A DNA stretch of 64,000 nt, taken from a virus. The translations under genes were made by a program, and so were the position numbers. Shown piece after piece: positions 1-45,898 of this stretch; position 1 is the stretch's first letter; the number at the start of each line of letters is the position of its first letter. Where the stretch lies: positions 1 through 64,000 of the IMG/VR virus record IMGVR_UViG_3300031344_000007; one strand, written 5' to 3'. The notes beneath the pieces are model-generated. The model was not told the DNA's origin, searched no databases, and saw only the letters and a program-made list of their open reading frames with translations.

Positions 1-197
1 AGCATGAAAAATGTCTCGGAAAAATTATTGCGTTTCATGTTGCCAACCATGATTACATTATAAATTCCTACTGAACATTAAGAGCAGCTTCTTATGCAAC
101 TGGAACTCGCACACTTTACATCAATCAATTACTGCAATAAAAGATTGTTTATAGTATTATGTGAATTATGAACTGAATTGCAGTACAGTTCATTAAG
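1..197. other. unassigned left edge
   Basis: This stretch lies downstream of tRNA-Ser(TGA) in the direction of tRNA transcription. I see one 6-bp hairpin (GAACTG/CAGTTC, 170-191) but no complete cloverleaf and no convincing gene. A 19-codon plus-strand frame at about 4-63 has no support. Confidence 0.3.
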
Positions 198-288
198 CGG
201 AGGTGATAGGCATCGAACCTACATACCGCTTTTTACACGATAACTGGTTTTCAGGACCAGACCGATACCAATTTCGGATGACACCTCC
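198..288 (-). tRNA. tRNA-Ser(TGA)
   Basis: Acceptor GGAGGTG/CACCTCC with discriminator G73, and a long variable arm typical of class II tRNA. The anticodon stem is CTGGT/ACCAG and the loop CCTGAAA, giving anticodon TGA with C instead of the normal U at position 33. It is the last tRNA of operon 1 inside the window. Confidence 0.9.
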
Positions 289-306
289 AAATATTATAAA
301 TAAAAG

Positions 307-392
307 AAGAGAGTGTGAGATTCGGACTCACGGAACAATTTCTCGTTCTATTGTTTAGCAAACAATTGCAATAACCACTCTGCCAACTCTCT
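307..392 (-). tRNA. tRNA-Ser(GCT)
   Basis: Acceptor AGAGAGT/ACTCTCT, anticodon stem ATTGT/ACAAT, loop TTGCTAA (GCT), long variable arm. It reads AGT/AGC, the serine codons not served by the TGA tRNA next to it. The discriminator appears to be T rather than the usual serine G. Confidence 0.87.
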
Positions 393-403
393 ATAAATTT
401 TTG

Positions 404-477
404 TTGTCTTGAGTGAGAATGATTCACTGACCCCTTCCTTATCAGAGAAGTGCTCTAACCAACTGAGCTACAAGACA
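404..477 (-). tRNA. tRNA-Ile(GAT)
   Basis: Acceptor TGTCTTG/CAAGACA, D-stem GCTC/GAGC, anticodon stem CTTCT/GGAAG, loop CTGATAA (GAT), discriminator A. The T-loop (ATCATTC) departs from the usual TTCRANY. Third gene from the left in operon 1. Confidence 0.88.
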
Positions 478-482
478 ATAAG

Positions 483-570
483 AGTCTGGTATGCGATTTG
501 AACGCATGTGTGCATATTACGTGCATATGGTTTTGCAGACCATCCCAATCGACCGCTCTGGCAACCAGAC
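483..570 (-). tRNA. tRNA-Cys(GCA) with long variable arm
   Basis: Acceptor GTCTGGT/ACCAGAC with T73, the usual cysteine discriminator. Anticodon stem ATGGT/ACCAT, loop CTGCAAA (GCA), T-stem ATGCG/CGCAT. The variable region is 19 nt and can form a TGCA/TGCA stem, whereas tRNA-Cys is normally class I. First tRNA of operon 1, after the boxA-like site. Confidence 0.87.
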
Positions 571-576
571 AAATAA

Positions 577-596
577 TTCCAACATGTCAAAGAACA
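577..596 (-). promoter_or_regulatory. boxA-like antitermination site, operon 1
   Basis: The minus strand reads TGTTCTTTGACATGTTGGAA, closely resembling the boxA (NusB/NusE) element of rRNA operons. The identical 20-mer lies in the same place in operon 3 (20458-20477), in both cases between the attenuator and the first tRNA. Role inferred from resemblance and position. Confidence 0.65.
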
Positions 597-606
597 TAAA
601 AACAAA

Positions 607-684
607 AAACCCGACTCATTTCTGTGTCGGGTTTGGTTTGATTCTTTTTGTTTAACTTCATTATGAAAACAAAATCCCCGACAC
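607..684 (-). promoter_or_regulatory. attenuator of tRNA operon 1
   Basis: Terminator hairpin AAACCCGAC/GTCGGGTTT (arms 626-634 and 607-615) followed by a T-rich run. The leader ORF contains GTGTCGGG (677-684), which pairs perfectly with CCCGACAC (624-631) at the 5' arm, giving a mutually exclusive antiterminator. Read-through would express the Cys, Ile and Ser tRNAs. Confidence 0.8.
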
Positions 685-789
685 GTTACTATTTCTGCCA
701 ATAAAATTTGAACAGAATATAGTTCTTCCTATGCGACTTGTTGTGGTCGATATAGAACTAAAAATATTTGTCGTTAAAGTTTTCATCAT
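661..789 (-). CDS. leader peptide of tRNA operon 1 (Ser/Ile/Thr/Cys rich)
   Basis: A 42-codon frame (start at 789 or 786) lies between a host-type promoter and the attenuator hairpin. It has 8 Ser codons (AGT and TCN), 6 Ile, 7 Thr and 1 Cys (TGT). The operon encodes tRNAs for Ser(GCT), Ser(TGA), Ile and Cys. The antiterminator strand lies in its last codons. A role as a sensor of charged tRNA is inferred by analogy with trp/his leaders. The Thr excess has no partner inside the window, which suggests a tRNA-Thr gene to the left of base 1. Confidence 0.75.
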   Translation of the reverse strand: MMKTLTTNIFSSISTTTSRIGRTIFCSNFIGRNSNVSGILFS

Positions 790-827: not shown

Positions 828-858
828 CAAAGATATAAAATGTTACAATATATACAAA
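828..858 (-). promoter_or_regulatory. Bacteroidota-type promoter of tRNA operon 1
   Basis: On the minus strand TTTG (855-858) is followed after 19 bp by TATCTTTG (828-835), matching TTTG-N19-21-TAnnTTTG. A run of about 40 bp around it is nearly identical to the operon 3 promoter at 20712-20757. Confidence 0.85.
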
Positions 859-8219: not shown

Positions 8220-8227
8220 AAATTACG

Positions 8228-8300
8228 TACCTTTGATGGGACTTGAACCCACAACCCGATGATTAAGAATCACCTACTCTACCAATTGAGCCACAAAGGT
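8228..8300 (-). tRNA. tRNA-Lys(CTT)
   Basis: Acceptor ACCTTTG/CAAAGGT with A73, D-stem GCTC/GAGT, anticodon loop TTCTTAA (CTT), T-arm GTGGG-TTCAAGT-CCCAT. It reads AAG. The 5' 27 nt overlap the 3' end of the HNH endonuclease gene. Confidence 0.93.
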
Positions 8301-8927
8301 ATTTTCATATTCTTTTTTTAATTTATGACATCTACAATAATTTCCACCCTTTGCTGCCAATCCAACAGAAATTAATGCTTGCCTCATATTAAAATTATAA
8401 TCAATTAATGCCATTAATAACTCTTCATCATTTATTTTACGTTTATTATTTTGTTTGTTTCTTCCTCTCCATGTTGGGGTTAATGAATGACAATTGGGAC
8501 ATAATGCTTCAAGATTTTCTCTTTTATTATTTTGATGATTACCATCAATATGTTCTAATTCTAATGTTATTTTTTCATCAAGCCATTTAGATAATTTACA
8601 TTTATTACATTGTTCGTTTTGTTCTAAAATAACTTTATTTCTTTTACTATCAACCCCCAAATCATTAAAATTTGTATTAAATAATTTATTTTTCCAATAT
8701 TCTTTTCTTTTTTCATTAATTTCTTTCCATTTTTCTTTTGAAAAATTATTAAATCTATTAATTCCAGTAGGTTTTCCTTTTAATTTGTTACTTAATTTTT
8801 CATTAATTTCTTTTCTTTTTTCTTTGGTGCTAAAACTTCTTGCACATTTTGATGAACAAAAATTACCGTTACTATATTTACTATATTTAATAGCATCTTT
8901 ACTTTGACAATTTTTACATTTTTTCAT
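8274..8927 (-). CDS. HNH homing endonuclease
   Basis: 217 aa. An N-terminal CKNCQ...CSSKC zinc finger (residues 4-28) is followed by a basic helical linker. The HNH nuclease (about 105-155) has CNKC, the metal-binding LELEHIDGNHQNN core and CPNCHS, and a helix-turn-helix-like tail follows. Free-standing HNH enzymes of this type spread by cutting cognate alleles. The gene sits between two tRNA-Lys genes, and its last nine codons lie inside the tRNA-Lys(CTT) gene, so the insertion left the tRNA intact. It has its own GTATTTATA motif 16 bp upstream. Confidence 0.88.
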   Translation of the reverse strand: MKKCKNCQSKDAIKYSKYSNGNFCSSKCARSFSTKEKRKEINEKLSNKLKGKPTGINRFNNFSKEKWKEINEKRKEYWKNKLFNTNFNDLGVDSKRNKVILEQNEQCNKCKLSKWLDEKITLELEHIDGNHQNNKRENLEALCPNCHSLTPTWRGRNKQNNKRKINDEELLMALIDYNFNMRQALISVGLAAKGGNYCRCHKLKKEYENTFVAQLVE

Positions 8928-8942
8928 TTCGAACTATTTTAA

Positions 8943-8951
8943 TATAAATAC
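8943..8951 (-). promoter_or_regulatory. GTATTTATA motif upstream of the HNH gene
   Basis: Perfect motif on the minus strand. The endonuclease therefore probably has its own transcription signal inside operon 2. Confidence 0.5.
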
Positions 8952-8979
8952 ATAATAAATTAAAATAGTTCGAATTTTG

Positions 8980-9052
8980 TCTCCCCGCTTGGAATCGAAC
9001 CAAGCCCTTCGGTTTAAAAGACCGAAGCAATACACCTGTTTGCTACGAGGAG
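8980..9052 (-). tRNA. tRNA-Lys(TTT)
   Basis: Acceptor CTCCTCG/CGGGGAG with A73, D-stem GCA/TGC, anticodon stem TCGGT/ACCGA, loop CTTTTAA (TTT), T-arm CTTGG-TTCGATT-CCAAG. It reads AAA, complementing tRNA-Lys(CTT). Confidence 0.93.
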
Positions 9053-9063
9053 AAATTATAAAG

Positions 9064-9148
9064 TGAGAGTGGTAGGATTCGAACCTACTGAGTATCATAG
9101 TGCGGGATTTACAGTCCCGTGCCCATCCACCATCTGAGCAGCACTCCC
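9064..9148 (-). tRNA. tRNA-Tyr(GTA)
   Basis: Class II tRNA with acceptor GGGAGTG/CACTCTC, A73, anticodon stem CGGGA/TCCCG, loop CTGTAAA (GTA) and T-arm GTAGG-TTCGAAT-CCTAC. First tRNA of operon 2. Confidence 0.95.
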
Positions 9149-9169: not shown

Positions 9170-9254
9170 AAACCCGAAACTTTCGAATCGGGTTTATGTT
9201 ATTTATACTTTGTAATTTATTAGCATTGTATTTTGAACACAGCATTCCCGATTC
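9170..9254 (-). promoter_or_regulatory. attenuator of tRNA operon 2
   Basis: Terminator hairpin AAACCCGA/TCGGGTTT (9170-9195) with a T run. GAATCGGG inside the leader ORF (9247-9254) pairs perfectly with CCCGATTC (9185-9192), which includes most of the terminator's 5' arm. The two pairings exclude each other. Confidence 0.8.
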
Positions 9255-9312
9255 TCATAAGTTGTTTCTTATAAGATTTTTTACCGTAATAATATGTTCC
9301 AAATGTAAACAT
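9220..9312 (-). CDS. leader peptide of tRNA operon 2 (Tyr/Lys rich)
   Basis: A 30-codon frame between the promoter and the attenuator. It has three consecutive Tyr codons plus a fourth, and five Lys codons using both AAA and AAG. Operon 2 encodes exactly tRNA-Tyr, tRNA-Lys(TTT) and tRNA-Lys(CTT). The antiterminator strand lies in the ATC-GGG-AAT codons near residue 21. Function as a translation sensor is inferred. Confidence 0.78.
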   Translation of the reverse strand: MFTFGTYYYGKKSYKKQLMRIGNAVFKIQC

Positions 9313-9348: not shown

Positions 9349-9380
9349 CAAATGTATATCATAAATACGAATAAAACAAA
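9349..9380 (-). promoter_or_regulatory. Bacteroidota-type promoter of tRNA operon 2
   Basis: TTTG (9377-9380), 20 bp, TACATTTG (9349-9356) on the minus strand, 37 bp before the leader ORF. A GTATTTATG sequence lies in the spacer. Confidence 0.8.
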
Positions 9381-14903: not shown

Positions 14904-14947
14904 ACATGTTGGAATTCTAAATCTGTTATTGATAATGTTTTTATTCG

Positions 14948-15018
14948 TAGCGATAATAAGAATCGAACTTATATGTCCTCCTTATGAGAGAGTTATCCTA
15001 CCATTGAATGATATCGCT
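14948..15018 (-). tRNA. tRNA with CAT anticodon (Met or lysidine-Ile)
   Basis: Acceptor AGCGATA/TATCGCT with A73, D-stem ATTC/GGAT, anticodon loop CTCATAA (CAT), T-arm ATAAG-TTCGATT-CTTAT. There is no run of three G-C pairs in the anticodon stem and no 1-72 mismatch, so it is not an initiator. Elongator Met and Ile(k2CAU) cannot be separated by eye. Confidence 0.85.
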
Positions 15019-16061: not shown

Positions 16062-16079
16062 AAAATTTCCCTCTATTTG

Positions 16080-16162
16080 TTTCCTTGGTGGGAGTCGAAC
16101 CCACACGCCCGAAGGCACTCGCTTTTGGGGAGAGCATGTGCTGCCAATTTCATCACAAGGAA
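16080..16162 (-). tRNA. tRNA-Leu(CAA)
   Basis: Class II tRNA with acceptor TTCCTTG/CAAGGAA and A73, anticodon stem CTCTC/GCGAG with one mismatch, loop CCCAAAA (CAA with C33), variable arm with a TTCG loop. It reads TTG. Confidence 0.85.
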
Positions 16163-16439: not shown

Positions 16440-16801
16440 TGGTGGAGATGCGGGGCATCGATTCCCCGGTGTTGCAATGTGATTAATAAGTTTTCTACAA
16501 GTTTATTTGATTTTCATAAATCAGCAAAATGTTAATTGTATTTTTCCAGAACAACTACAAAACTGTCCAGAACTTATTTTACTTCCTTTCTGATTTGGGA
16601 AGTTTTTTGCTGTTTATTTTTTCCTGTTACGCAATTGAAAGTACGGCACTCTTTACAAATACGCTGTTTCCTTTTGTCAAGGAAGTAGGAATAGACATAA
16701 TGTCTTCTGCATTTATTGTTTTGAACCTTTTTAAAGTAGTCCGATTCAACTACTACTTGCTTACATCATTTTTCTACATACAGTCAAATCCATTCATCCC
16801 C
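16440..16801 (-). ncRNA. ssrA: tmRNA
   Basis: 362 nt. The 5' end GGGGATG pairs with CATCTCC at the 3' end, followed by encoded A-CCA; the tRNA-like 5' part contains GGATTTGAC and the 3' part a T-arm CGGGG-ATCGAT-CCCCG. Pseudoknot 1 is clear: stem AGTAGT/ACTACT with a loop TTGAATC pairing with GGTTCAA downstream. After it comes a possible resume codon GCA (16708-16710) and a 27-codon tag ending SIA-stop (16627-16629). Further hairpins follow, e.g. ACTTCC/GGAAGT. tmRNA with its partner SmpB rescues stalled ribosomes and tags nascent peptides. The tag is long and lacks the usual ALAA end. Confidence 0.9.
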
Positions 16802-17569: not shown

Positions 17570-17638
17570 AATTTTACAAATTTAGTCTATTATATAAATA
17601 TATGCAAATAAAAAATAAGTTTTATTTAGATATCAAAG

Positions 17639-17721
17639 CACACCGAGAACGATTCGAACGCTCAAAACCATTACTGGTCGCACTTTTGGAGAGTGTTTGG
17701 CTTACCAATGCCTACCGATGT
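17639..17721 (-). tRNA. tRNA-Trp(CCA) with long variable arm
   Basis: Acceptor ACATCGG/TCGGTGT with G73, D-stem GGC/GCC, anticodon loop CTCCAAA (CCA), T-arm GAGCG-TTCGAAT-CGTTC. The 16-nt variable region folds into ACCA-GTAA-TGGT, a class II-like arm that tRNA-Trp normally lacks. The top pair of the anticodon stem is a mismatch. Confidence 0.78.
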
Positions 17722-17744
17722 GTATATTACTGAAATAATTTTTG

Positions 17745-17826
17745 TAGCTCTGGTCGGATTCGAACCGACACGCCCGAAGACATTTGCTTTTAAGACAAAC
17801 ACGTCTACCAATTCCATCACAGAGCC
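17745..17826 (-). tRNA. tRNA-Leu(TAA)
   Basis: Class II; acceptor GGCTCTG/CAGAGCT with A73, anticodon stem TTTGT/GCAAA, loop CTTAAAA (TAA), variable arm with a TTCG loop. It reads TTA, the most frequent Leu codon of an AT-rich phage. Confidence 0.93.
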
Positions 17827-17832
17827 ATATTG

Positions 17833-17903
17833 TGGATACTTCGGGACTCGAACCCAATCTTCTGAGTGCAAAACAGACGTTCTTTCCTTTGAACTAAAGA
17901 CCC
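17833..17903 (-). tRNA. tRNA-Ala(TGC), copy 2
   Basis: Acceptor GGGTCTT/AGTATCC with the G3-U70 pair that defines alanine identity, one mismatch at 5-68, A73. D-stem GTTC/GAAC, loop TTTGCAC (TGC) with a weak lowest anticodon-stem pair. Somewhat degenerate compared with the copy at 17966. Confidence 0.78.
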
Positions 17904-17965
17904 ATATTAAATTTCTATGCTTTCCATTACTTGGAACTATGAAATTTTTAACAGTCTTTCTACCG

Positions 17966-18039
17966 TGGAATCGAAGGGCATCGAACCCTCACTCTCCTGA
18001 TTGCAGGTCAGGTGCTTTAGCCAGTTAAGCTACGACCCC
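17966..18039 (-). tRNA. tRNA-Ala(TGC), copy 1
   Basis: Acceptor GGGGTCG/CGATTCC with G3-U70 and A73, D-stem GCTT/AAGC, anticodon stem CCTGA/TCAGG, loop CCTGCAA (TGC with C33), T-arm GAGGG-TTCGATG-CCCTT. Confidence 0.9.
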
Positions 18040-18052
18040 AATTATTATTTAG

Positions 18053-18131
18053 TAGCCAAGAAGAGACTCGAACTCTCACCAATGATTATGCGTTCTAAGC
18101 GCACAGACTTTACCATTTTGTCCACTCGGCT
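18053..18131 (-). tRNA. tRNA-Leu(TAG)
   Basis: Acceptor AGCCGAG/CTTGGCT with A73, anticodon stem GTGCG/CGCAT, loop CTTAGAA (TAG), rather short variable arm. It reads CTA. Confidence 0.88.
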
Positions 18132-18136
18132 AAATG

Positions 18137-18228
18137 TACCCTAAATCCGACTCGAACGGATATTTTAGTTTTCACTAAAAAATTGCTTCTTAGACAATCG
18201 TGTCTCACTCCAGTTGCACCATTAGGGC
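18137..18228 (-). tRNA. tRNA-Leu(AAG)
   Basis: Acceptor GCCCTAA/TTAGGGT with A73, anticodon stem ATTGT/GCAAT, loop CTAAGAA (AAG), long variable arm TTTTAGT/ACTAAAA. A34 is rare in bacterial leucine tRNA and would need deamination to inosine to read CTC. Confidence 0.82.
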
Positions 18229-18240
18229 ATTTAATTATCG

Positions 18241-18329
18241 GTTGTAGAACAAATATCGCCTTTTTAACCGATAAATATTAAATATCGGTAATTAAGGCGA
18301 TATTATGATTGTATTTGGCACTACAATCT
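18241..18329 (-). ncRNA. structured element inside the tRNA array
   Basis: Between tRNA-Leu(AAG) and tRNA-Val the transcript can form GATTGTA/TACAATC and then a long hairpin AATATCGCCTT...ACCGATA/TATCGGT...AAGGCGATATT (18252-18304) with a 4x4 internal loop. It has no T run and no cloverleaf. Possibly a processing signal, an unknown small RNA or a palindromic insertion. Confidence 0.5.
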
Positions 18330-18333
18330 TTTG

Positions 18334-18408
18334 TATTCCCTGTAGGCTTCGAACCTACGACATCTTGCTTGTAGGGCAAGCACTCTGACCCATCTGAGTT
18401 AAGGGAAT
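18334..18408 (-). tRNA. tRNA-Val(TAC)
   Basis: Acceptor ATTCCCT/AGGGAAT with A73, D-stem ACTC/GAGT, anticodon stem CTTGC/GCAAG, loop CCTACAA (TAC with C33), T-arm GTAGG-TTCGAAG-CCTAC. Confidence 0.93.
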
Positions 18409-18508
18409 ATATTTGTTAGTAAAAGCCAGCATTAAATCAAATTTTATATGATAATGTTAGTATTTCTGTAAGTTTTGACATTATTTTAATGAATCTTATG
18501 TAAAATAA

Positions 18509-19474
18509 TTATTTCCAAACACTATTTCTATTATTACCTTTACCAGCACATTGTCTTGAGCAATATATATTTTTTGATTTACATTGCTTTCCACAGACTT
18601 TACAAAAATTAGTTAACTTATTATATGGATTATCATCATATAAATGAATATAATTTTTACCATATTTTTCAATTATATATGAAAAAATATGTTTTAGTTC
18701 GTTTTTTTTCATAACAATTAATGGTTTTTTAAAAGAATTATATTTTAAAATATCTTTTTTCCTTTCATATCCTTTTATTTCATAATAAACATTGTCGATA
18801 ATAAAATCAGGATAATATTTGTGTTTTATATTATCAATGTAATATTCGAATCCATTATTATTTCTTTCAAAAATAATTTTATGGTCTATATTATAGATAA
18901 CAAATGCTAATTCATAACTACTATCACACCAATATCCTTTATACCAACCAGATTTACCTCTACCAGAACCTTTTCTATAACCACCCTTACTAACACCTCT
19001 ATATTTACAATTTTTATCATTACAATAACATTTTTTTGAACAATATATTCTATTATTTCCAGATTCTCTCACCCAAAAATCATTTTTACAAATAGGACAA
19101 GTTTTTAATATTCTTTTATTTAAATTTTTTTGTACCCACCTTTTATTTTTATCGTGTAACAAATAATTTTTTTTATTAATAAAACCTATTTTAAGTTTTG
19201 TTTCTTCACTATGTTTTCTAGTGTTTGCACAACTTCTTGAACAAAAATATTTTTCTTTTTTTGGAATATTAACGTTATATTCACTAATTTCAAATTCGCT
19301 TTTACATGTAAAACATTTAACTTTAAAAATTTTCCATTTGTTTAAAACAGTTATTTTTTGTTTTTCAATACTTTCTAATGTAGGAATATATTTTGTAGGG
19401 TTGTGTTTATTTCTACATTTTGAATTACAATATTTATTTTTTACTTCTTTACCACAATTTAAACATTTATTCAT
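18509..19474 (-). CDS. zinc-finger homing endonuclease, PD-(D/E)XK type
   Basis: 321 aa. Four or more CxxC...C zinc knuckles (near residues 4-19, 54-82, 126-146 and the C-terminal CKVCGKQ...CSRQC) surround a nuclease core: SSYELAFVIYN near 193, YYPDFIIDN near 228 and YYEIKGYE near 239, i.e. the E...PD...ExK arrangement. It should bind DNA sequence-specifically and cut it to promote its own spread. It splits tRNA operon 3 between Glu(CTC) and Val and has its own GTATTTATA motif 14 bp upstream. Confidence 0.82.
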   Translation of the reverse strand: MNKCLNCGKEVKNKYCNSKCRNKHNPTKYIPTLESIEKQKITVLNKWKIFKVKCFTCKSEFEISEYNVNIPKKEKYFCSRSCANTRKHSEETKLKIGFINKKNYLLHDKNKRWVQKNLNKRILKTCPICKNDFWVRESGNNRIYCSKKCYCNDKNCKYRGVSKGGYRKGSGRGKSGWYKGYWCDSSYELAFVIYNIDHKIIFERNNNGFEYYIDNIKHKYYPDFIIDNVYYEIKGYERKKDILKYNSFKKPLIVMKKNELKHIFSYIIEKYGKNYIHLYDDNPYNKLTNFCKVCGKQCKSKNIYCSRQCAGKGNNRNSVWK

Positions 19475-19487
19475 ATATAATATTTTA

Positions 19488-19496
19488 TATAAATAC
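19488..19496 (-). promoter_or_regulatory. GTATTTATA motif upstream of the homing endonuclease
   Basis: Minus strand AGTATTTATATAAAA, a full match. It may also supply transcription of the distal tRNA genes of operon 3 and the tmRNA independently of the attenuator. Confidence 0.55.
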
Positions 19497-19549
19497 TATA
19501 TACTCTTAAAAAGAATCGAAATTGTTTAATTAGAATGATTTAAATTTTG

Positions 19550-19633
19550 TACTGCATGAGGAATTCGAATCCTGCGAAGCCTTTCGGCACTTGCTTGAGA
19601 GGCAAGTCGCTTTAACCACTTGCATAATGCAGC
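19550..19633 (-). tRNA. tRNA-Glu(CTC) with long variable arm
   Basis: Acceptor GCTGCAT/ATGCAGT with A73, anticodon stem CTTGC/GCAAG, loop CTCTCAA (CTC), T-arm CAGGA-TTCGAAT-TCCTC. The 15-nt variable region folds as GCC-GAAA-GGC. Glutamate tRNAs are normally class I, so this could be a class II tRNA that changed anticodon; the leader codon content supports glutamate. Confidence 0.8.
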
Positions 19634-19709
19634 AAATTAATTATTTCGTTTTTCTATTATTAATTCATTCAATTTTAAAAACAATATAACAAATAGTTAT
19701 CTTAATTAT

Positions 19710-19768
19710 CAATGCTGAGAACGTAGAATGAGAATCTTTTGTCCTAACCATTAGACGAACCGAGCATT
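19710..19768 (-). pseudogene. decayed tRNA-Glu(CTC)
   Basis: The 5' half has the canonical glutamate D-arm context (GTTCGTCTAATGGTTAGGAC) and an anticodon loop TTCTCAT (CTC). The T-arm and much of the 3' half are missing and only part of the acceptor pairs (AATGCT/AGCATT). It sits 1 bp beyond the SiaC-like stop codon and 76 bp before the class II tRNA-Glu(CTC). Confidence 0.65.
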
Positions 19769-19769
19769 T

Positions 19770-20165
19770 CTATTTAAATTGTTTTGGAAGTAAAAAATGC
19801 TTATATTGAAAATGAATTTTAGGTTTAAGTGATGTTTCAAAAAATTCTCCTTGTTCTTTCATATCTTCATCATCTTCTTCATATTTCCAAACAACTAAAA
19901 TATTGGTAAGGGATTTTGCAACTTTTTGTAATATATTAAAAAGTGCTTTATTTGATGATGAATTAATATATTCAAATTCACAAGTAATTGTTAAATCAAC
20001 ATCTGAATGGTTTTTAATAAATTCATCTAATGCTTTATCAATATTATCAAAGAACATTAAGGAATTCTCAGGAAATGATTTTCCAGTTATTGTAAGAATA
20101 CCTCTTTTAATATTAAAAAAAACTGCGGGTGTGTTGTTCGTTGCATTAATATACAAATTTTCCAT
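19770..20165 (-). CDS. SiaC-family regulatory phosphoprotein (DUF1987)
   Basis: 131 aa from the Met at 20165; a longer frame would run through tRNA-Glu(TTC). It shows the SiaC pattern in order: TPAVFFNIKRGILTITGKSFPENS, FEYINSSSNKALF and VVWKYEEDDEDMKEQGE. In Pseudomonas SiaC is phosphorylated on a Thr by the kinase SiaB and dephosphorylated by the SpoIIE-like SiaA, and so controls a diguanylate cyclase. The stretch that normally reads NTSS is NSSS here. The gene is embedded in tRNA operon 3; a SpoIIE-type phosphatase is encoded at 23893-25122. No SiaB homologue is seen. Confidence 0.82.
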   Translation of the reverse strand: MENLYINATNNTPAVFFNIKRGILTITGKSFPENSLMFFDNIDKALDEFIKNHSDVDLTITCEFEYINSSSNKALFNILQKVAKSLTNILVVWKYEEDDEDMKEQGEFFETSLKPKIHFQYKHFLLPKQFK

Positions 20166-20194
20166 AATTAAAATTAGTTTTAATTTAACATTTG

Positions 20195-20278
20195 TACAGC
20201 GTGTGGGATTCGAACCCAGCGAAACCTTTCGGTACAAGATTGAAGGTCTTGCCACTTTAACCGCTTGTATAACGCTGC
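20195..20278 (-). tRNA. tRNA-Glu(TTC) with long variable arm
   Basis: Acceptor GCAGCGT/ACGCTGT with A73, anticodon stem CAAGA/TCTTG, loop CCTTCAA (TTC with C33). The variable arm folds as ACC-GAAA-GGT. Same architecture as tRNA-Glu(CTC) at 19550, clearly a paralogue. Confidence 0.82.
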
Positions 20279-20280
20279 AT

Positions 20281-20377
20281 AAAATATTAATGTCGCTCTT
20301 CCTTGCTGAGTCGTACACCTAATTCAGAATTTTCATCTGAGGTCACAAGAATCGAACTTGCGTCCACATTAATATTT
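20281..20377 (-). ncRNA. circularly permuted tRNA-like element
   Basis: Perfect 13-bp inverted repeat (AAAATATTAATGT/ACATTAATATTTT) encloses three arms. On the minus strand they come in the order T-arm (GCAAG-TTCGATT-CTTGT), a bulged helix ACCT.CAGA/TCTG....AGGT, then a D-arm-like hairpin CG.CTC/GAGCG with GG in its loop. This is the order expected of a tRNA opened in its anticodon, with acceptor strands joined by a loop. It fits exactly between tRNA-Asp and tRNA-Glu. Whether it is processed is unknown; it may also be a rearranged pseudogene. Confidence 0.5.
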
Positions 20378-20379
20378 TG

Positions 20380-20452
20380 CCGAGACTGAGAGATTCGAAC
20401 TCTAACCCACTGCGTGACAGGCAGTTATACTAGCCATTATACTACAGCCTCG
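20380..20452 (-). tRNA. tRNA-Asp(GTC)
   Basis: Acceptor CGAGGCT/AGTCTCG with G73 (aspartate identity), anticodon stem ACTGC/GCAGT, loop CTGTCAC (GTC). First tRNA of operon 3. Confidence 0.93.
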
Positions 20453-20457
20453 AAAAT

Positions 20458-20477
20458 TTCCAACATGTCAAAGAACA
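20458..20477 (-). promoter_or_regulatory. boxA-like antitermination site, operon 3
   Basis: The same 20-mer as at 577-596, 5 bp upstream of tRNA-Asp and 43 bp downstream of the attenuator hairpin. Confidence 0.65.
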
Positions 20478-20520
20478 TTATACGAACAATATTAATTTTT
20501 GTTACATTCTTTTCAAAAAA

Positions 20521-20588
20521 AAATCTCGACCATTTTTAAGTGGTCGAGATTTTTTCATTAAGAAAGGAAATATTATCTTTCTCGACCA
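20521..20588 (-). promoter_or_regulatory. attenuator of tRNA operon 3
   Basis: Terminator AAATCTCGACCA/TGGTCGAGATTT (20521-20552), 12 bp, followed by a T run. TGGTCGAGA in the last codons of the leader ORF (20580-20588) pairs over 9 bp with TCTCGACCA (20541-20549) of the 5' arm, forming an antiterminator. Confidence 0.85.
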
Positions 20589-20668
20589 AATATAACAATA
20601 TCTTCTGCATCTGCCCATAATAGGACAACTGCCATCTCTGATACTAATATGTCGAGTAATCTTTTCAT
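20573..20668 (-). CDS. leader peptide of tRNA operon 3 (Leu/Val/Asp/Glu/Ala/Trp)
   Basis: 31 codons. Nineteen encode the six amino acids whose tRNAs follow: Leu 5, Val 4, Asp 3, Glu 3, Ala 3, Trp 1. Leu codons TTA, CTC and CTA correspond to the three Leu anticodons downstream; Glu codons GAA and GAG to TTC and CTC. The TGG codon is matched by tRNA-Trp 2.9 kb downstream. Antiterminator strand in the Gly-Arg-Glu codons. Also holds three Arg codons with no visible tRNA-Arg. Confidence 0.82.
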   Translation of the reverse strand: MKRLLDILVSEMAVVLLWADAEDIVIFGRER

Positions 20669-20723
20669 TATTTTTTAATTATTAAATTTGTTTTACTAAC
20701 TTCGTTTAATTCTAAATACGTTG

Positions 20724-20754
20724 CAAAGATATAAAATGTTACAATATATACAAA
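20724..20754 (-). promoter_or_regulatory. Bacteroidota-type promoter of tRNA operon 3
   Basis: TTTG (20751-20754), 19 bp, TATCTTTG (20724-20731). It begins 7 bp beyond the stop codon of the receiver-domain gene. Confidence 0.85.
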
Positions 20755-20760
20755 CTTTTT

Positions 20761-21132
20761 TTAAAATATTTTTTTATAAGTATCAAATAATGATTTAATA
20801 TTTCGACTTCCAACCGGATTCATTGAGTGTATTAGAATTGTTTTAGGTATTTCTAATTTATTGTCAATACAATAATATATTAACCATTTAGCACAATGAT
20901 AACCAGTTTTTTCTGGATTATCATCATAATTAGCAACTCTTTCATAATCAATATAATTAAGGTCATGGTCAAAACTAATAGTTTCTGGAATACCATTTTC
21001 TTGAATCATTTTTACAAACTCATCATAATTTCTTACAATTTTCCAATCAAGAATATTATATGTTGGATTCCCTAAATAATAAAAAGAATCTACAGGTTCT
21101 CTGAAGTCATCGAGATAAAGATTATATATCAT
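20761..21132 (-). CDS. cyclic-phosphate processing receiver-domain protein
   Basis: 123 aa. The pattern LYLDDFREPVD at the N-terminus, SFDHDL near residue 53, a Trp-Leu helix near 82 and ILIHSMNPVGSRNI near 101 is that of the cPRD family, a receiver-like fold predicted in RNA-repair systems to act on 2',3'-cyclic phosphate ends. It is the last gene of tRNA operon 4, after two tRNA-Gln genes. With the Rnl1-type ligase at 11849 it would supply both end-healing and sealing. Activity inferred from the family prediction only. Confidence 0.75.
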   Translation of the reverse strand: MIYNLYLDDFREPVDSFYYLGNPTYNILDWKIVRNYDEFVKMIQENGIPETISFDHDLNYIDYERVANYDDNPEKTGYHCAKWLIYYCIDNKLEIPKTILIHSMNPVGSRNIKSLFDTYKKIF

Positions 21133-21199
21133 AATTTTTAATTATTAATTTGCAAAGATAATAAAAAAATAGATTAAATTTTATAAAAAATATAAATAG

Positions 21200-21270
21200 T
21201 TCCCTTATTAGGATTTGAACCTAAATATTCATTTTCAGAGAATGAAATGTTACCATTACATCATAAGGAA
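21200..21270 (-). tRNA. tRNA-Gln(CTG)
   Basis: Acceptor TTCCTTA/TAAGGGA with A73, anticodon stem TCATT/AATGA, loop CTCTGAA (CTG), T-arm TTAGG-TTCAAAT-CCTAA. It reads CAG. Confidence 0.9.
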
Positions 21271-21276
21271 ATATTG

Positions 21277-21349
21277 TTGCCATGTACAGATTCGAACTGT
21301 AACTAATTGATTCAAAGTCAATTGTGCTAATCCATTACACAACAAGGCA
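21277..21349 (-). tRNA. tRNA-Gln(TTG)
   Basis: Acceptor TGCCTTG/CATGGCA with one mismatch and A73, anticodon stem ATTGA/TCAAT, loop CTTTGAA (TTG), T-arm TACAG-TTCGAAT-CTGTA. It reads CAA. Confidence 0.92.
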
Positions 21350-21355
21350 ATATTG

Positions 21356-21427
21356 GGGGTGATGAGGTATTTGAAACCTCCCCGACAGAATCACAATCTG
21401 GCATGCTACCGCTACACCAATCATCCC
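21356..21427 (-). tRNA. tRNA-His(GTG)
   Basis: Extended acceptor with encoded G-1 pairing with C73, the histidine identity mark; one A-C mismatch at 3-70. Anticodon stem CAGA/TCTG, loop TTGTGAT (GTG). Confidence 0.88.
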
Positions 21428-21434
21428 ATATAAA

Positions 21435-22283
21435 TTATATATTATTATAATATTCTAAAAATTTATTTATTTCATTCTTTATATATTGTTTACCATTTTC
21501 AGTATTAATATTTTTCCATTTTATTCTATAAACAACGTATCCATTATCATTTAATATTTTATCTCTAATTACATCATGTTCTTTTCTATAATTATGTTGT
21601 TTACCATCAATTTCTAAATCAATATTTTTATCTTCAATATAAAAATCTAAAAAATAATTACATGAATCGGTTAAGCCTAAATTTCTTTTATTTACTGGAT
21701 AATTATGTTTATAACCAATATTATTATTTTTTAGTACATTAATAAAAAACCGTTCAGGATAACTAATAATATTTCTTGCTGTCCAACCTTTATGAATACC
21801 ATTTGCAATTCTTTTATTTATAAAATCTTTAGTATTATTACTTTTTAATTTTAAATGGCATTCTTTTGAACAACATTTAGATTTACTTGGTTTTCCACTT
21901 AAACATTTTTGAGAAATAAATTCATTTTTACATATTACACATATTTTTTTAGTTTCACGATTAACTTTATTATTAATAAATCTATTGTTTAATAATGAAT
22001 CACTTATTTTATTTTTTGTTTCGTTACTTAATTTTCTTTTTTTATTATTAAATGTTGCAGCACATGAACTATTACAAAATTTGTTTCTACTATTTATTTT
22101 TTTATTACAATTTAAACAATATTTTATTTTTTTATTAAAATGTGATACATTAATATCATTTTCTAATATAAATTCGTTTAATTCTTCATATACTCTAGCA
22201 TTTGAAAATCCAAAATATTTTAATAATATTTCATTTTTAGATTTAGATGTTTCAATAATCTCAATTAATTTTTTTTCACACAC
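21435..22283 (-). CDS. VSR-like (EDxHD) homing endonuclease
   Basis: 282 aa, GTG start at 22283. Zinc knuckles near residues 56-73 (CLNCNKK...CNSSC) and 113-141 precede a VSR/very-short-patch-like nuclease: CNYFLDFYIEDKNIDLEIDGKQH near 212-234 and YVVYRIKW near 252. The acidic residues and the QH fit the EDxHD homing endonuclease family. It interrupts operon 4 between tRNA-Pro and tRNA-His, with its own motif upstream. Confidence 0.8.
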   Translation of the reverse strand: MCEKKLIEIIETSKSKNEILLKYFGFSNARVYEELNEFILENDINVSHFNKKIKYCLNCNKKINSRNKFCNSSCAATFNNKKRKLSNETKNKISDSLLNNRFINNKVNRETKKICVICKNEFISQKCLSGKPSKSKCCSKECHLKLKSNNTKDFINKRIANGIHKGWTARNIISYPERFFINVLKNNNIGYKHNYPVNKRNLGLTDSCNYFLDFYIEDKNIDLEIDGKQHNYRKEHDVIRDKILNDNGYVVYRIKWKNINTENGKQYIKNEINKFLEYYNNI

Positions 22284-22298
22284 AATATTTAAATTTAT

Positions 22299-22307
22299 TA
22301 TAAATAC
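22299..22307 (-). promoter_or_regulatory. GTATTTATA motif upstream of the EDxHD endonuclease
   Basis: Minus strand CAGTATTTATAATAAA, 15 bp before the GTG start. Confidence 0.55.
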
Positions 22308-22315
22308 TGTGGATG

Positions 22316-22420
22316 TCGAAAAAATACGAGTTGAACTATAGGTATTTCAAAGAACTTTGCTAAATTTTTAGTTAACCTTTTGGTTATGCAGTGATTACTA
22401 CGTGCAAGTAATTTAACATC
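22316..22420 (-). other. hairpin-rich stretch after tRNA-Pro
   Basis: Consecutive small hairpins on the minus strand: ATTACT/AGTAAT, AACC-AAAA-GGTT, CTAAA/TTTAG, CAAAG/CTTTG and GAAATAC/GTATTT around a TTCAACT loop. GACATCC at the 3' end partly pairs with TGATGTT at the 5' end. It may be a decayed or unusual tRNA-like RNA. An 11-codon ORF starts inside it; no anticodon can be assigned. Confidence 0.35.
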
Positions 22421-22427
22421 AATCACT

Positions 22428-22513
22428 TCGGGGTGACACGGTTCGAACGTGCGAGGGATTTCTCCACCTGCTTCCAAGGCAGGACTGCTACCAACTACAG
22501 ACCTACACCCCGA
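22428..22513 (-). tRNA. tRNA-Pro(TGG) with long variable arm
   Basis: Acceptor CGGGGTG/CACCCCG with A73, anticodon stem CCTGC/GCAGG, loop CTTGGAA (TGG), T-arm GCACG-TTCGAAC-CGTGT. The 14-nt variable region folds as GGA-GAAA-TCC. First tRNA of operon 4. Confidence 0.85.
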
Positions 22514-22529
22514 TATATATAATAAAAAA

Positions 22530-22603
22530 CCCCATTCGTTTGAATGGGGTCTACTAATTGCTCTCTCACTTCTTAAAAAACTTAAGCATAGTTTCCCCAT
22601 TCA
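22530..22603 (-). promoter_or_regulatory. attenuator of tRNA operon 4
   Basis: Terminator ACCCCATTC-AAAC-GAATGGGGT (22530-22551) with a T run. TGAATGGGG in the leader ORF (22595-22603) is able to pair over 9 bp with CCCCATTCA (22542-22550), excluding the terminator. Confidence 0.85.
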
Positions 22604-22650
22604 GTCACCTGTGGATGTTGTTGGGGGTTAATATGCATTAAATTTTTCAT
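22582..22650 (-). CDS. leader peptide of tRNA operon 4 (Gln/His/Pro)
   Basis: 22 codons: Gln 3 (CAA, CAA, CAG), His 2, Pro 2, Asn 3. Operon 4 encodes Pro(TGG), His(GTG), Gln(TTG) and Gln(CTG). The cognate codons form a tight block at positions 6-14, and the antiterminator strand follows at Glu-Trp-Gly. Confidence 0.8.
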   Translation of the reverse strand: MKNLMHINPQQHPQVTEWGNYA

Positions 22651-22687: not shown

Positions 22688-22717
22688 CAAATATATGCAT
22701 TAAAATTATAAATACAA
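22688..22717 (-). promoter_or_regulatory. Bacteroidota-type promoter of tRNA operon 4
   Basis: TTG (22715-22717), 19 bp, TATATTTG (22688-22695), 38 bp before the leader ORF. A full GTATTTATA motif (22707-22715) overlaps the -33 box, so two polymerases or sigma factors could start here. Confidence 0.78.
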
Positions 22718-42574: not shown

Positions 42575-45500
42575 ATGGCTGAACCAGCAAAAAATAAAGG
42601 AACTGTATATCAAGAACTCAATAAAATGATGAATCTTGATGGGTTTGGTTTTCAAGATAATCAACCTACAAGTGTAATGCAACAAGCATCCGCACCACCA
42701 TCAGAAAAATCTAAAATAATTATTAAGGGTAATAGTCCTGAAGAAATTCATAAAAAGGGTTTAGAGTTAGAACAGAAAAGAGAACTTCAAAATAAATTTT
42801 TTAGAACAACTGATAGGGGTTTTCAAAAAGCACTTCAATATGAAGCAGCAAGATTACCTGCATACATGGATTATGAAGGGATGGAATATTATCCTATTAT
42901 CAGCAGTGCGTTAGATTTATTCATGGAAGAAGCAACTACAATTGGTTTCAATGGTAAAATGTTAAATATATATTCCAATAAAGAAAGAATAAAAATGTTG
43001 TTAGAGGAATTTTTTTATGATATAGTAAATGTTAATGTTAATTTACCATTCTGGGTAAGAAATACACCAATTAAATATGATAGTATTATCCCATTATTGA
43101 GTGGTGAAGAAATCACAATAAAAGAATTATCAGAAAGATTAAAGAAAAACCCAAAGGATGAAATTTGGACTTATTCAATTCAAGATAAAACAAATAAAAT
43201 AGTTGCTGGTAAAATAGTTTGGTGTGATTTAACTAGAAAAGATAGTGATATATTAAAAATTACTTTCGATGATGGTACATATGTTGAAACAACACCAGAC
43301 CATGAATATATGCTTAGAAATGGTTCATATTTAAGAGCAGATAAATTAAATGCTGGTTCTAGTTTAATGCCATTTTATACATTAACAAGTAATGAGGCTA
43401 ATTATATTTCTGGATACGAAAAAGTTTATAATCCAGCATCAAATCATCATGTATTTACCCATAGAATTGTTGCACAAGAATGTGTTATTAATTTAGATGA
43501 AGAGAATAGAATAAAAGAAGATTTTGTTACACACCATGTTGATTTTAATAAAAAGAATAATAGTCCTTCAAATTTATTAAGAATGACAAATGCTGAACAT
43601 GGTAATTATCATGCTAAACTAGGTAATGTGGGAAAAATTATATTACAAAGAGAAGATGTAAGAAAAAATAGAATGTTAGGTATTGATAAATATTTACGTT
43701 CAGAAAAAAGAAAAAAAAGATTATCAAAAGAAATGTTAGGAATTTACCCAACTTATTTTGATAAATATAATAACAGTCCATTACATGATGAACATAATAT
43801 TATTCGTAAGAATAAAATGACAGAATTGTGGTTAGATGAAAATTATCAGAATAAAGTAAAAGATAAGATGCAATTAAAATTAAATGATAATTGTTTAAAA
43901 CATATAGTTAATATTTTGGGTCGTAGTAAGACATATATTGGATGTGCTAATTTAGGAAAAGAATTAATGAAAGATGCTCAATTCATGCTATTATTTAAAT
44001 CATCTAATCCTAATATTAGAAAAAATTTAAATAAATCATTAAGTAGTACTACATTATATAAACTTATATTTAGAAAAACGCAAATGAAATATTGTGATTT
44101 TGTGTCAAGTATTAATCCTAAGATAATTAATGAAACAAATTTTAAAAGAGCAAATGCTATTTCAAATAAATCTAATATAAAAGCATCATCAATATTAAAT
44201 CATAAAGTATTATCGATTGAAAAAATTGATGAAAAATGCGATGTTTATTGTATGGAAGTTGTTGGCAAAAACAATGAGCAAGATAGACATAATTTTCCTG
44301 TTTGTAGTAAAAATGAAAACGGTGAATATACCAGAAATGGTGTCTTTCTTTCGAATTGTAAATATGGCGATAATTTCGTCCTATTATATGGTGAACGTAA
44401 AAAAGGTATTACTCATGTGAAACAATTAGTTAATTACGAAATTGAAAGATTTGAAAGAATTCAAAATGGTAAACCATTGGTTAAATTCAAAGAAAGAATG
44501 ACTGGTGACGAATTTAATGTTTTTGAAATTGCTCATTTTCGACTTTTAGGTGATGATAAATATTTACCTTATGGAAGTTCTATTTTAAATAAAGTTCGCA
44601 GAGTTTTTAGACAACTTGTAATGGCAGAAGATGCCATGCTTACATATCGTATTATTCGTGCTGGTGAAAAGAAAGTATTTAAAATTGATGTTGGAAATAT
44701 TGATGAGGATGATATTGAAGAATATATTTATAAAGTTGCTACAAAATTTAAAAAATCAGCACAAGTAAATCCAAATGATGGTCAGATTGATTATCGTTTT
44801 AATATACTTGGTAATGATGAAGATTATTTTATTCCAGTTAGAAATGCAAATACTGAAACTGGTATTGATACATTACCCGGTGCAACTAACCTAGATGCTA
44901 TACAAGATATTGAGTATCTGAGAGATAACCTTTTCATCGGACTTGGGATTCCAAAACCTTTTTTATCATTTCAAGATGCTGCAGGTGCAGGTAAAAATAT
45001 GGCACAATATGATATTAGATTTTCAAAAAAAATAAATCGTATTCAACAAGCCATAATTCAAGAATTGAATAAAATGGCAATGGTTCATTTATATTTATTA
45101 GGATATACTGGCGAAGATTTAAGTAGTTTTACACTTACGCTCACAAATCCAAGTACTCAACAAGAATTATTAAAGTCTGAATTAATGCGTGATAAAGCAC
45201 AAACATATACTGAATTAACACGTGCTGAAGGTGGTATTGCAGCTATGTCACATACTACTGCAAAACGTATGATTTTCAATATGAGTGATAAAGCTATTGT
45301 TGATGATTTGAAACAACAAAAAATGGAAAAAGTTGTTATGCAAGAACTTCAAGATTCTCCAGTTACAATTAAAAAATCTGGTTTGTTTACTGATATTGAT
45401 AAACGTTTTGGTTCACCAGAAGAAATGCCAATATCTGGTGCAACTGCTGGTGGTGCTCTTCCTTCTGCTGGTGGTGGAACTGGTGCTCCACCTGCTGGTG

Positions 45501-45898
45501 GTGCTCTTCCTTCTGCTGGTGGTGGAACTGGTGCTCCACCTGCTGGTGGTGCTCTTCCTTCTGCTGGTGGTATAAATGGTGGTGGAGCAACAGGTGGTGC
45601 TGAAACAATGATGGAAAATAAAAAAAATAAATTAAGTGAAGAAGATTTTAATAAACATATTGAAAAATTAGTATATGGAAGTAGTAAGGAAACTGAAATT
45701 AAAAAAGAAACTGAACATACACAAATTATTCAAGAAAATAATGAAATTAATGATTATTTGAACAACAAAGCATTGAATATGGTTAACGAAATTACTAATT
45801 TATTAGAAAATCATGAAAGTATAAATACAGAACAAAAAAATATTGAAATACAAGATACTGAAATTATGGATATTGAAAACATTGATTTAAACGAATAA
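42575..45898 (+). CDS. portal protein with intein (gp20-type)
   Basis: 1107 aa, about 676 after removal of a 431-aa intein (residues about 164-594). The portal ring is the DNA entry port of the head. The N-part has AYMDYEGMEYYPIISSALDLFMEEAT near 95-120 and the C-part CKYGDNFVLLYGE, YLPYGSSILNKVRRVFRQLVMAEDAMLTYRI near 667 and LGIPKPFLSFQDAAGAGKNMAQYD, which match the portals of large T4-like phages. The tail carries three GGALPSAGGGTGAPPA repeats (about 955-1005) encoded by near-identical 48-bp units, then an acidic C-terminus. Confidence 0.88.
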   Translation: MAEPAKNKGTVYQELNKMMNLDGFGFQDNQPTSVMQQASAPPSEKSKIIIKGNSPEEIHKKGLELEQKRELQNKFFRTTDRGFQKALQYEAARLPAYMDYEGMEYYPIISSALDLFMEEATTIGFNGKMLNIYSNKERIKMLLEEFFYDIVNVNVNLPFWVRNTPIKYDSIIPLLSGEEITIKELSERLKKNPKDEIWTYSIQDKTNKIVAGKIVWCDLTRKDSDILKITFDDGTYVETTPDHEYMLRNGSYLRADKLNAGSSLMPFYTLTSNEANYISGYEKVYNPASNHHVFTHRIVAQECVINLDEENRIKEDFVTHHVDFNKKNNSPSNLLRMTNAEHGNYHAKLGNVGKIILQREDVRKNRMLGIDKYLRSEKRKKRLSKEMLGIYPTYFDKYNNSPLHDEHNIIRKNKMTELWLDENYQNKVKDKMQLKLNDNCLKHIVNILGRSKTYIGCANLGKELMKDAQFMLLFKSSNPNIRKNLNKSLSSTTLYKLIFRKTQMKYCDFVSSINPKIINETNFKRANAISNKSNIKASSILNHKVLSIEKIDEKCDVYCMEVVGKNNEQDRHNFPVCSKNENGEYTRNGVFLSNCKYGDNFVLLYGERKKGITHVKQLVNYEIERFERIQNGKPLVKFKERMTGDEFNVFEIAHFRLLGDDKYLPYGSSILNKVRRVFRQLVMAEDAMLTYRIIRAGEKKVFKIDVGNIDEDDIEEYIYKVATKFKKSAQVNPNDGQIDYRFNILGNDEDYFIPVRNANTETGIDTLPGATNLDAIQDIEYLRDNLFIGLGIPKPFLSFQDAAGAGKNMAQYDIRFSKKINRIQQAIIQELNKMAMVHLYLLGYTGEDLSSFTLTLTNPSTQQELLKSELMRDKAQTYTELTRAEGGIAAMSHTTAKRMIFNMSDKAIVDDLKQQKMEKVVMQELQDSPVTIKKSGLFTDIDKRFGSPEEMPISGATAGGALPSAGGGTGAPPAGGALPSAGGGTGAPPAGGALPSAGGINGGGATGGAETMMENKKNKLSEEDFNKHIEKLVYGSSKETEIKKETEHTQIIQENNEINDYLNNKALNMVNEITNLLENHESINTEQKNIEIQDTEIMDIENIDLNE
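43064..44356 (+). mobile_element. intein in the portal gene, with HNH-like insert
   Basis: Inserted directly before the Cys of CKYGDNF. Hint-domain marks: IKYDSIIPLLSG (block A), TPDHEYML (block B), CDVYCMEV...RHNFPV (block F) and FLSN before Cys+1 (block G). A nuclease-like middle with HHVDFNKKNNSPSNLLRM...NAEHGNYH resembles HNH enzymes. The first residue would be Thr or Pro instead of the usual Cys or Ser, so it may splice by a non-standard route or not at all. Confidence 0.8.
45440..45585 (+). repeat. Gly/Ala/Pro-coding tandem repeat in portal
   Basis: Nearly perfect tandem copies of a 48-bp unit encoding Gly-Gly-Ala-Leu-Pro-Ser-Ala followed by a Gly/Thr/Ala/Pro stretch. Probably a flexible linker and prone to length change. 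Confidence 0.8.

Follow-up and report, generated by a model that had tools for sequence, protein, structure and literature searches.

The window analysed here, i.e. positions 1 to 64,000 of the IMG/VR record IMGVR_UViG_3300031344_000007, carries four main tRNA operons (A to D), all encoded on the minus strand and all showing a Bacteroidota-type promoter, a short leader ORF and an intrinsic terminator, the 5' arm of which is complementary to a segment of the leader. In operon C, a promoter with the pattern TTTG-N19-TATCTTTG (20724..20754) precedes the leader ORF MKRLLDILVSEMAVVLLWADAEDIVIFGRER of 31 codons (20573..20668), the last codons of which contain the antiterminator segment TGGTCGAGA (20580..20588), complementary to the 5' arm of the terminator and a second copy of its 3' arm. 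The intrinsic terminator AAAAAATCTCGACCA/TGGTCGAGATTTTTT with its T run (20518..20555) comprises 15 bp counting A-U pairs, with a 9-bp core, and folds with -19.0 kcal/mol (z = -8.5), compared to -12.8 kcal/mol for the antiterminator hairpin. Between the terminator and the first tRNA lies a boxA-like element, GTTCTTTGACATGTTGGAA (20458..20476), followed by the tRNAs Asp, Glu(TTC), Glu(CTC), Val, Leu(AAG), Leu(TAG), two Ala, Leu(TAA) and Trp with inserted ORFs (17638..20452), and further along by Leu(CAA) (16079-16162) and Met(CAT) (14947-15018).

A sequence-only reading of operon C had proposed leader-peptide attenuation on the basis of a promoter, a 31-codon leader and a terminator with T run before the tRNAs, with the terminator 3' arm being repeated in the last leader codons. 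These elements held upon re-examination of the sequence (TGGTCGAGA at 20588-20580), as did the list of downstream tRNAs (Asp, two Glu, Val, three Leu, Ala and Trp) and the count of 19 out of 31 leader codons being cognate to them, i.e. encoding Leu, Val, Asp, Glu, Ala or Trp; the terminator, given as 12 bp, is the 15-bp stem described above. The suggested comparison of codon content with ORFs of 20-45 codons was favourable as well, none of the 302 other ATG-started ORFs of this size in the window reaching the cognate fraction of the leader (maximum 0.60 versus 0.63). Overlooked were operons A, B and D, which carry the same device with matching leaders.

Operon D has the promoter TTG-N19-TATATTTG, including the -7 element (22688..22717), the leader MKNLMHINPQQHPQVTEWGNYA (22582..22650), the antiterminator segment TGAATGGGG (22595..22603) and the terminator CCCCATTC/GAATGGGG (22523..22556) in front of the tRNAs Pro, His, Gln and Gln with an inserted ORF (21199..22513). 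Operon B shows the promoter TTTG-N20-TACATTTG (9349..9380), the leader MFTFGTYYYGKKSYKKQLMRIGNAVFKIQC (9220..9312), the antiterminator segment GAATCGGG (9247..9254) and the terminator CCCGATTC/GTTTCGGG (9170..9195), followed by Tyr, Lys(TTT) and Lys(CTT), again with an inserted ORF (8227..9148). For operon A, we found the promoter at 828..858 within an upstream region that is a near-copy of the operon C promoter (91% over 69 nt), the leader MMKTLTTNIFSSISTTTSRIGRTIFCSNFIGRNSNVSGILFS (661..789), the antiterminator segment GTGTCGGG (677..684), the terminator CCCGACAC/GAGTCGGG (607..634) and a boxA-like element (577..595). As the operon is truncated by the contig end, only Cys, Ile, Ser(GCT) and, at about 190-290, a Ser(TGA)-like gene missed by ARAGORN are visible of its tRNAs (190..570).

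Several other features of the window were recorded. A tmRNA (16440-16801, minus strand; RF00023, 68 bits, full length) lies beyond the operon C tRNAs within the tRNA region and escaped detection by ARAGORN. The ORFs inserted among the tRNAs (19770-20318, 20761-21132 and 8274-8927) comprise a SiaC-family protein, a cREC_REC protein and an HNH-looking ORF. On the plus strand, a portal gene (42575-45898) is interrupted by an HNH-endonuclease-like, intein-like insert.

The four leaders split the genetic code among each other: leader C is dedicated to Asp/Glu/Val/Leu/Ala/Trp, leader D to Pro/Gln/His ('NPQQHPQ'), leader B to Tyr/Lys and leader A to Thr/Asn/Ile/Phe/Ser/Arg/Gly/Cys. Each leader matches the tRNAs of its own operon, the true pairing of leaders and operons ranking 1 of 24. 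For leader A, the full operon can be read in the close relative G011, which has an identical leader and the tRNAs Thr, Thr, Cys, Ile, Ser, Ser, Phe, Gly, Met, Asn, Thr, Arg, Arg, Arg and Gly; 36 out of 41 leader residues after the start belong to the set T/C/I/S/F/G/N/R of this operon. Leaders B and D are less striking singly, as 10/302 and 4/302 random short ORFs do as well, so the pattern rests on the set of operons.

Leaders and tRNA content across phages

Relatives were gathered by a search with the neighbouring cREC_REC gene followed by whole-record tRNA searches. The attenuator device was seen in many viral contigs and in one cultured phage, Cellulophaga phage phi17:2, as well as in three huge phages from the literature, LR745206 (635 kb), LR756500 (462 kb) and LR756501 (735 kb). 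It thus occurs in numerous large phages with Bacteroidota-type hosts, the largest measuring 735 kb. The tRNA operons meet the criteria for Bacteroidota promoters (-33 TTG(T), -7 TAnnTTTG), the TAnnTTTG element being present upstream of 57 out of 69 leaders, and the attenuated operons have an intrinsic terminator between the leader and the first gene. The sequence-only reading would have been refuted by relatives keeping the tRNAs without the leader codons or the antiterminator pairing; the relatives keep both.

Among relatives, differences in the tRNAs of an operon are accompanied by corresponding differences in its leader. For example, G008 has its Trp tRNA in operon A, and Trp is present in leader A and absent from leader C. 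In L126, no His tRNA is found in the stretch examined, and the leader reads QPQPKQQPQ. LR745206, LR756501 and phi17:2 show other amino-acid partitions and correspondingly other leaders: in LR745206, the amino acids are divided differently again among seven leaders, such as MNTITNIASYESYYEEGNLVRRNNYVVM (followed by Glu and Tyr) and MKTINNTSKSSSRSSSMSEIRLYS (followed by Arg and Ser), and in phages with other partitions MTTTQQIQQQQINQTD precedes Gln tRNAs and MNNILHINLLNSLCLLGIKLIG precedes five Leu tRNAs. In phi17:2, the code is divided among three leaders, i.e. MKIQRLHLQELEQPIISGGTGV before Pro, Glu, Gln, His, Leu, Leu and Arg, the GTG-started VQLTKTGITVIDKTKGARAYLGDTVIG before Ala, Lys, Ile, Gly, Met, Asp, Thr, Val, Arg and Met, and MKTNYCTYNNSNWSFSYDTGSVCTLGSDGLIG before Tyr, Ser, Asn, Trp, Phe and a gene annotated as 'tRNA-Pseudo'. 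Only MKTNYCTYNNSNWSFSYDTGSVCTLGSDGLIG was reported by the automatic finder, the other two being read by eye. The 'tRNA-Pseudo' gene (NC_021798 91043-91116) has the anticodon loop GCA, making it a tRNA-Cys, and a Cys codon is present in its leader. As a separate observation, L155 has a single attenuator followed by 24 tRNAs in which all 20 amino acids are represented; its 40-residue leader contains 19 out of 20 amino acids (no Cys).

The device is not found everywhere. No convincing attenuator was seen in LR756508, LR756511, Flavobacterium phage immuto and crAss001, all of which have tRNAs; in L098 a strong terminator precedes Ser with no detectable leader. Distant relatives of the neighbouring cREC_REC gene (L022-L053) revealed no attenuator under the strict rule, and under a looser rule only that of L032 (MRNILESLSSSSLWHLPRRPV before Leu/His/Ser/Trp) is convincing. 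A megablast search of the operon C locus against GenBank phages and a tblastn search of one leader peptide against phages returned no match. Conversely, some leaders detected by the automatic finder are likely false positives (e.g. L030, L008 at 14844).

For a statistical analysis, leaders were chosen blind to composition, as the longest ORF ending between antiterminator and terminator, counting only residues before the antiterminator. For 64 leaders, non-redundant at 80%, the match score was 237 compared to 0.3 +/- 17.4 for shuffled pairings (maximum 69.5; 0/20,000; z = 13.6). Nineteen amino acids are commoner in leaders whose operon carries their tRNA; Met shows no such enrichment in these 64 leaders (p = 0.2). 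As related leaders are not independent, the permutation was also done within phages, with leader cores and tRNA sets typed from tables and homologous phages included. The true pairing came first in all eight sets tried, among them the phages with other partitions, LR745206 (7 leaders, rank 1 of 5040), phi17:2 (3), LR756501 (3), G014 (5) and G008 (3), the product of p being about 10^-10. A correction to Tyr/Lys was applied for L169, in which a gene called Leu(gag) by ARAGORN is by eye a tRNA-Tyr followed by a tRNA-Lys. The leader codons are furthermore skewed to rare ones (GAG 0.47 versus 0.05; CTC 0.16 versus 0.02), as expected for sensitive attenuators, with RNA-structure constraints possibly contributing to the shift towards GC-ending codons.

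These data bear on the rival explanation that the leader is a functional small protein, its likeness to the tRNA content being a compositional coincidence. In its favour, leaders of the same family begin with conserved residues (MKNLLDIL, MKNLVNI). Against it, leaders of unrelated operons share no common sequence but only cognate content, and coincidence is excluded by the pairing shuffles. Within the C family, cognate residues often interchange, differing aligned positions being cognate-for-cognate in 963 and cognate-for-noncognate in 684 cases, and the total cognate content stays steady at 0.77 +/- 0.06. We regard this rival as very unlikely.

Alternative pairings and folding of the leader RNA

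Of 68 leaders, 87% have a copy whose pairing with the terminator 5' arm exceeds that of dinucleotide-shuffled upstream sequence (p <= 0.05). For a set of 36 distinct 5' arms, the own pairing scored 20.7 compared to 13.8 for swapped arms (0/20,000), and therefore the pairing is maintained while the sequence changes.

The arrangement was also searched for without regard to the encoded residues, scanning two DNA patterns containing only the antiterminator copy, the terminator arms and the T run over 2.9 million viral contigs. This yielded 60 distinct viral sites, with a same-strand tRNA within 600 nt in 56/60 and within 3 kb in 60/60; the chance level for a tRNA within 600 nt, obtained from random positions of the same, tRNA-rich loci, is 14%. 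In bacterial genomes, the pattern with the GAATGGGG-type stem gave no match, and the other pattern gave 19 sites, none of them near a tRNA. Among these bacterial sites are six trp leaders of Parapedobacter located upstream of a TrpE homologue (2e-127), WWW being present in five of them and WW in the sixth, and a gammaproteobacterial site with an RRRRR leader before N-acetylornithine carbamoyltransferase. Both types are classical attenuators, showing that the pattern recovers the known mechanism, and the Parapedobacter trp leaders serve as a positive control. Two further sites in Gemmatimonadales (L175, L184) have short ORFs (MKEESQVQELVGISSAN and MRQESEVQELVGISSAS) in the same stem arrangement before a protein resembling a PLP-dependent synthase by eye, possibly representing an unrelated attenuator.

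Folding of the complete leader RNA at equilibrium favoured the terminator at every ribosome position modelled, and equilibrium folding was rejected as an explanation of the switch; the decision must therefore be kinetic, i.e. co-transcriptional, as in trp. In partial transcripts of operon C lacking the 3' arm, the antiterminator probability was 0.57-0.58 with the ribosome stalled on early or middle cognate codons and 0.00 with the ribosome at the stop codon. This contrast is clear for operons C and D of the window, for leaders in L006 and L012 (14535) and for several others. In operon B of the window and several other leaders, the stop codon lies about 30 nt past the antiterminator and a static footprint model of the parked ribosome shows no block, so that for such leaders one has to postulate a block by the passing ribosome or by steric hindrance in the loop. 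An argument against the switch is that in most leaders the antiterminator would be covered by the very ribosome that stalls on the final cognate codons. In summary, codon matching and alternative pairings are strongly supported, whereas the kinetic competence of the switch is only partly supported by folding.

The boxA-like element GTTCTTTGACATGTTGGAA is conserved in relatives: TTCTTTGA is present in 25 out of 45 terminator-to-first-tRNA spacers of at least 25 nt, mostly as GTTCTTTGACATGTTGGAA or near it. It looks like the host rrn boxA because the near-identical GTTCTTTGACATATTGGAA, two mismatches away, is found in Parapedobacter rRNA loci a few hundred bases after 16S. The phage element differs from the rrn boxA of Bacteroidota in following an attenuator and preceding tRNAs, and its function here is inferred.

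Proposed mechanism and relation to known systems

Our data support a model according to which each tRNA operon is under ribosome-mediated transcription attenuation induced by shortage of its own tRNAs, which we consider very likely (probability about 0.9) in the absence of expression data. Promoter, leader, terminator, antiterminator complementarity and the matching of leaders to tRNAs with its co-variation across phages are shown from sequence; leader translation, stalling, the kinetic choice of fold, the feedback, the read-through response in vivo and tRNA loss as the natural trigger are inferred. The attenuation proposed by the sequence-only reading is accordingly supported in its codon matching and alternative pairings, its response of read-through to tRNA depletion remaining an inference. 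In this model, RNA polymerase would start at the host-type promoter and a ribosome would translate the leader. With the tRNAs of the operon being plentiful, the ribosome would reach the end of the leader and keep the antiterminator segment unpaired, allowing the terminator to form and transcription to stop before the first tRNA. With one cognate tRNA being scarce, the ribosome would stall upstream on its codons, the antiterminator segment would pair with the emerging terminator 5' arm, and the polymerase would read into the tRNAs, probably aided by the boxA-like antitermination element. The newly made tRNAs would relieve the stall, resulting in a homeostatic circuit.

One possible, though less likely, alternative is an ordinary amino-acid-starvation attenuator, sensing uncharged tRNA from low amino acids rather than tRNA loss. 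It is supported by the architecture, which is that of host biosynthetic attenuators responding to charging, such as the Parapedobacter trp leader. Against it, all amino-acid groups have leaders, and the regulated genes are tRNAs, which cannot cure amino-acid starvation; tRNA loss would therefore be the more sensible signal. Moreover, host tRNA depletion in phage infection and rescue by phage tRNAs have been published (PMC10264068, PMC11555353). A second alternative holds that the device is coupled to translation in its timing and senses general translation loss, e.g. host shut-off, rather than specific tRNAs. Without a ribosome the antiterminator would be free, so that any block of leader translation would raise read-through; general sensing needs no codon matching, yet the matching is near-universal and tracks operon content, making this alternative unlikely. 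A third, a T-box or another RNA binding tRNA directly, is suggested by the controlled genes being tRNAs, and T-box riboswitches likewise sense the tRNA state and control termination. They do so by direct tRNA binding without a leader peptide, leaving the codon-matched ORF unexplained, and at Rfam gathering scores the window revealed no T-box or other known leader, nor was a sub-threshold T-box present at the leader. We judge direct tRNA binding to be very unlikely.

Attenuation induced by tRNA shortage, as we propose it, resembles the trp/his/leu/thr/ilv leader-peptide attenuators in the codon-rich leader ORF, the mutually exclusive antiterminator and intrinsic terminator, the upstream promoter and the use of rare codons. 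Leaders for several amino acids are known from ilvGMEDA and thr. The phage devices differ in regulating tRNAs instead of biosynthetic enzymes, in up to seven leaders per phage together covering nearly the whole code, and in a simpler, two-state pairing with the antiterminator segment at the end of the leader. The Parapedobacter trp leader (L171, L172, L177, L179, L186, L187) comes close, with its stem GTCGGG/CCCGAC/GTCGGG, a copy near the end of the short leader (MLMNKFRIALWWWLDGNNVGQAGTVTCG) and a host phylum that is the same as that of the phage promoter type, but it is dedicated to Trp only and controls trpE. The tRNA clusters of T4, T5, SP15 and crAss001 are multi-tRNA phage operons as well, for which no attenuator is reported in the literature searched; SP15 tRNAs have a strong promoter (PMC11555353), and in crAss001 a promoter lies directly before the tRNA array with no attenuator found. 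As stated by the sequence-only reading for phage tRNA operons, we found no description of leader-peptide control of a phage tRNA operon, or of any tRNA operon, in the open-access literature searched (most subscription journals being outside this scope), and the main text of the paper reporting the huge phages does not mention attenuation or leaders. While the attenuation mechanism is known, its target, i.e. phage tRNA operons, the division of the code among several leaders and the setting are new as far as the literature searched shows.

Whether phage tRNAs serve codon compensation or the replacement of destroyed host tRNAs has been debated for decades (PMC10264068). A bolder reading, towards which we lean with some reserve, is that large Bacteroidota phages carry a code-wide array of tRNA sensors, each leader switching on only the tRNA set that has suffered losses; the array would serve as an inducible response to defences that destroy tRNAs or to the decay of the host translation machinery. 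If true, operon-specific induction by tRNA shortage would reveal what constitutes the problem from the viewpoint of the phage, and the cultured phi17:2 makes the question of phage tRNA purpose testable. The finding would extend ribosome-mediated attenuation to tRNA genes and provides a rule by which the leader predicts the operon and vice versa, which pointed to the Cys identity of the phi17:2 tRNA-Pseudo; the leaders may furthermore offer ready-made sensors for individual tRNAs.
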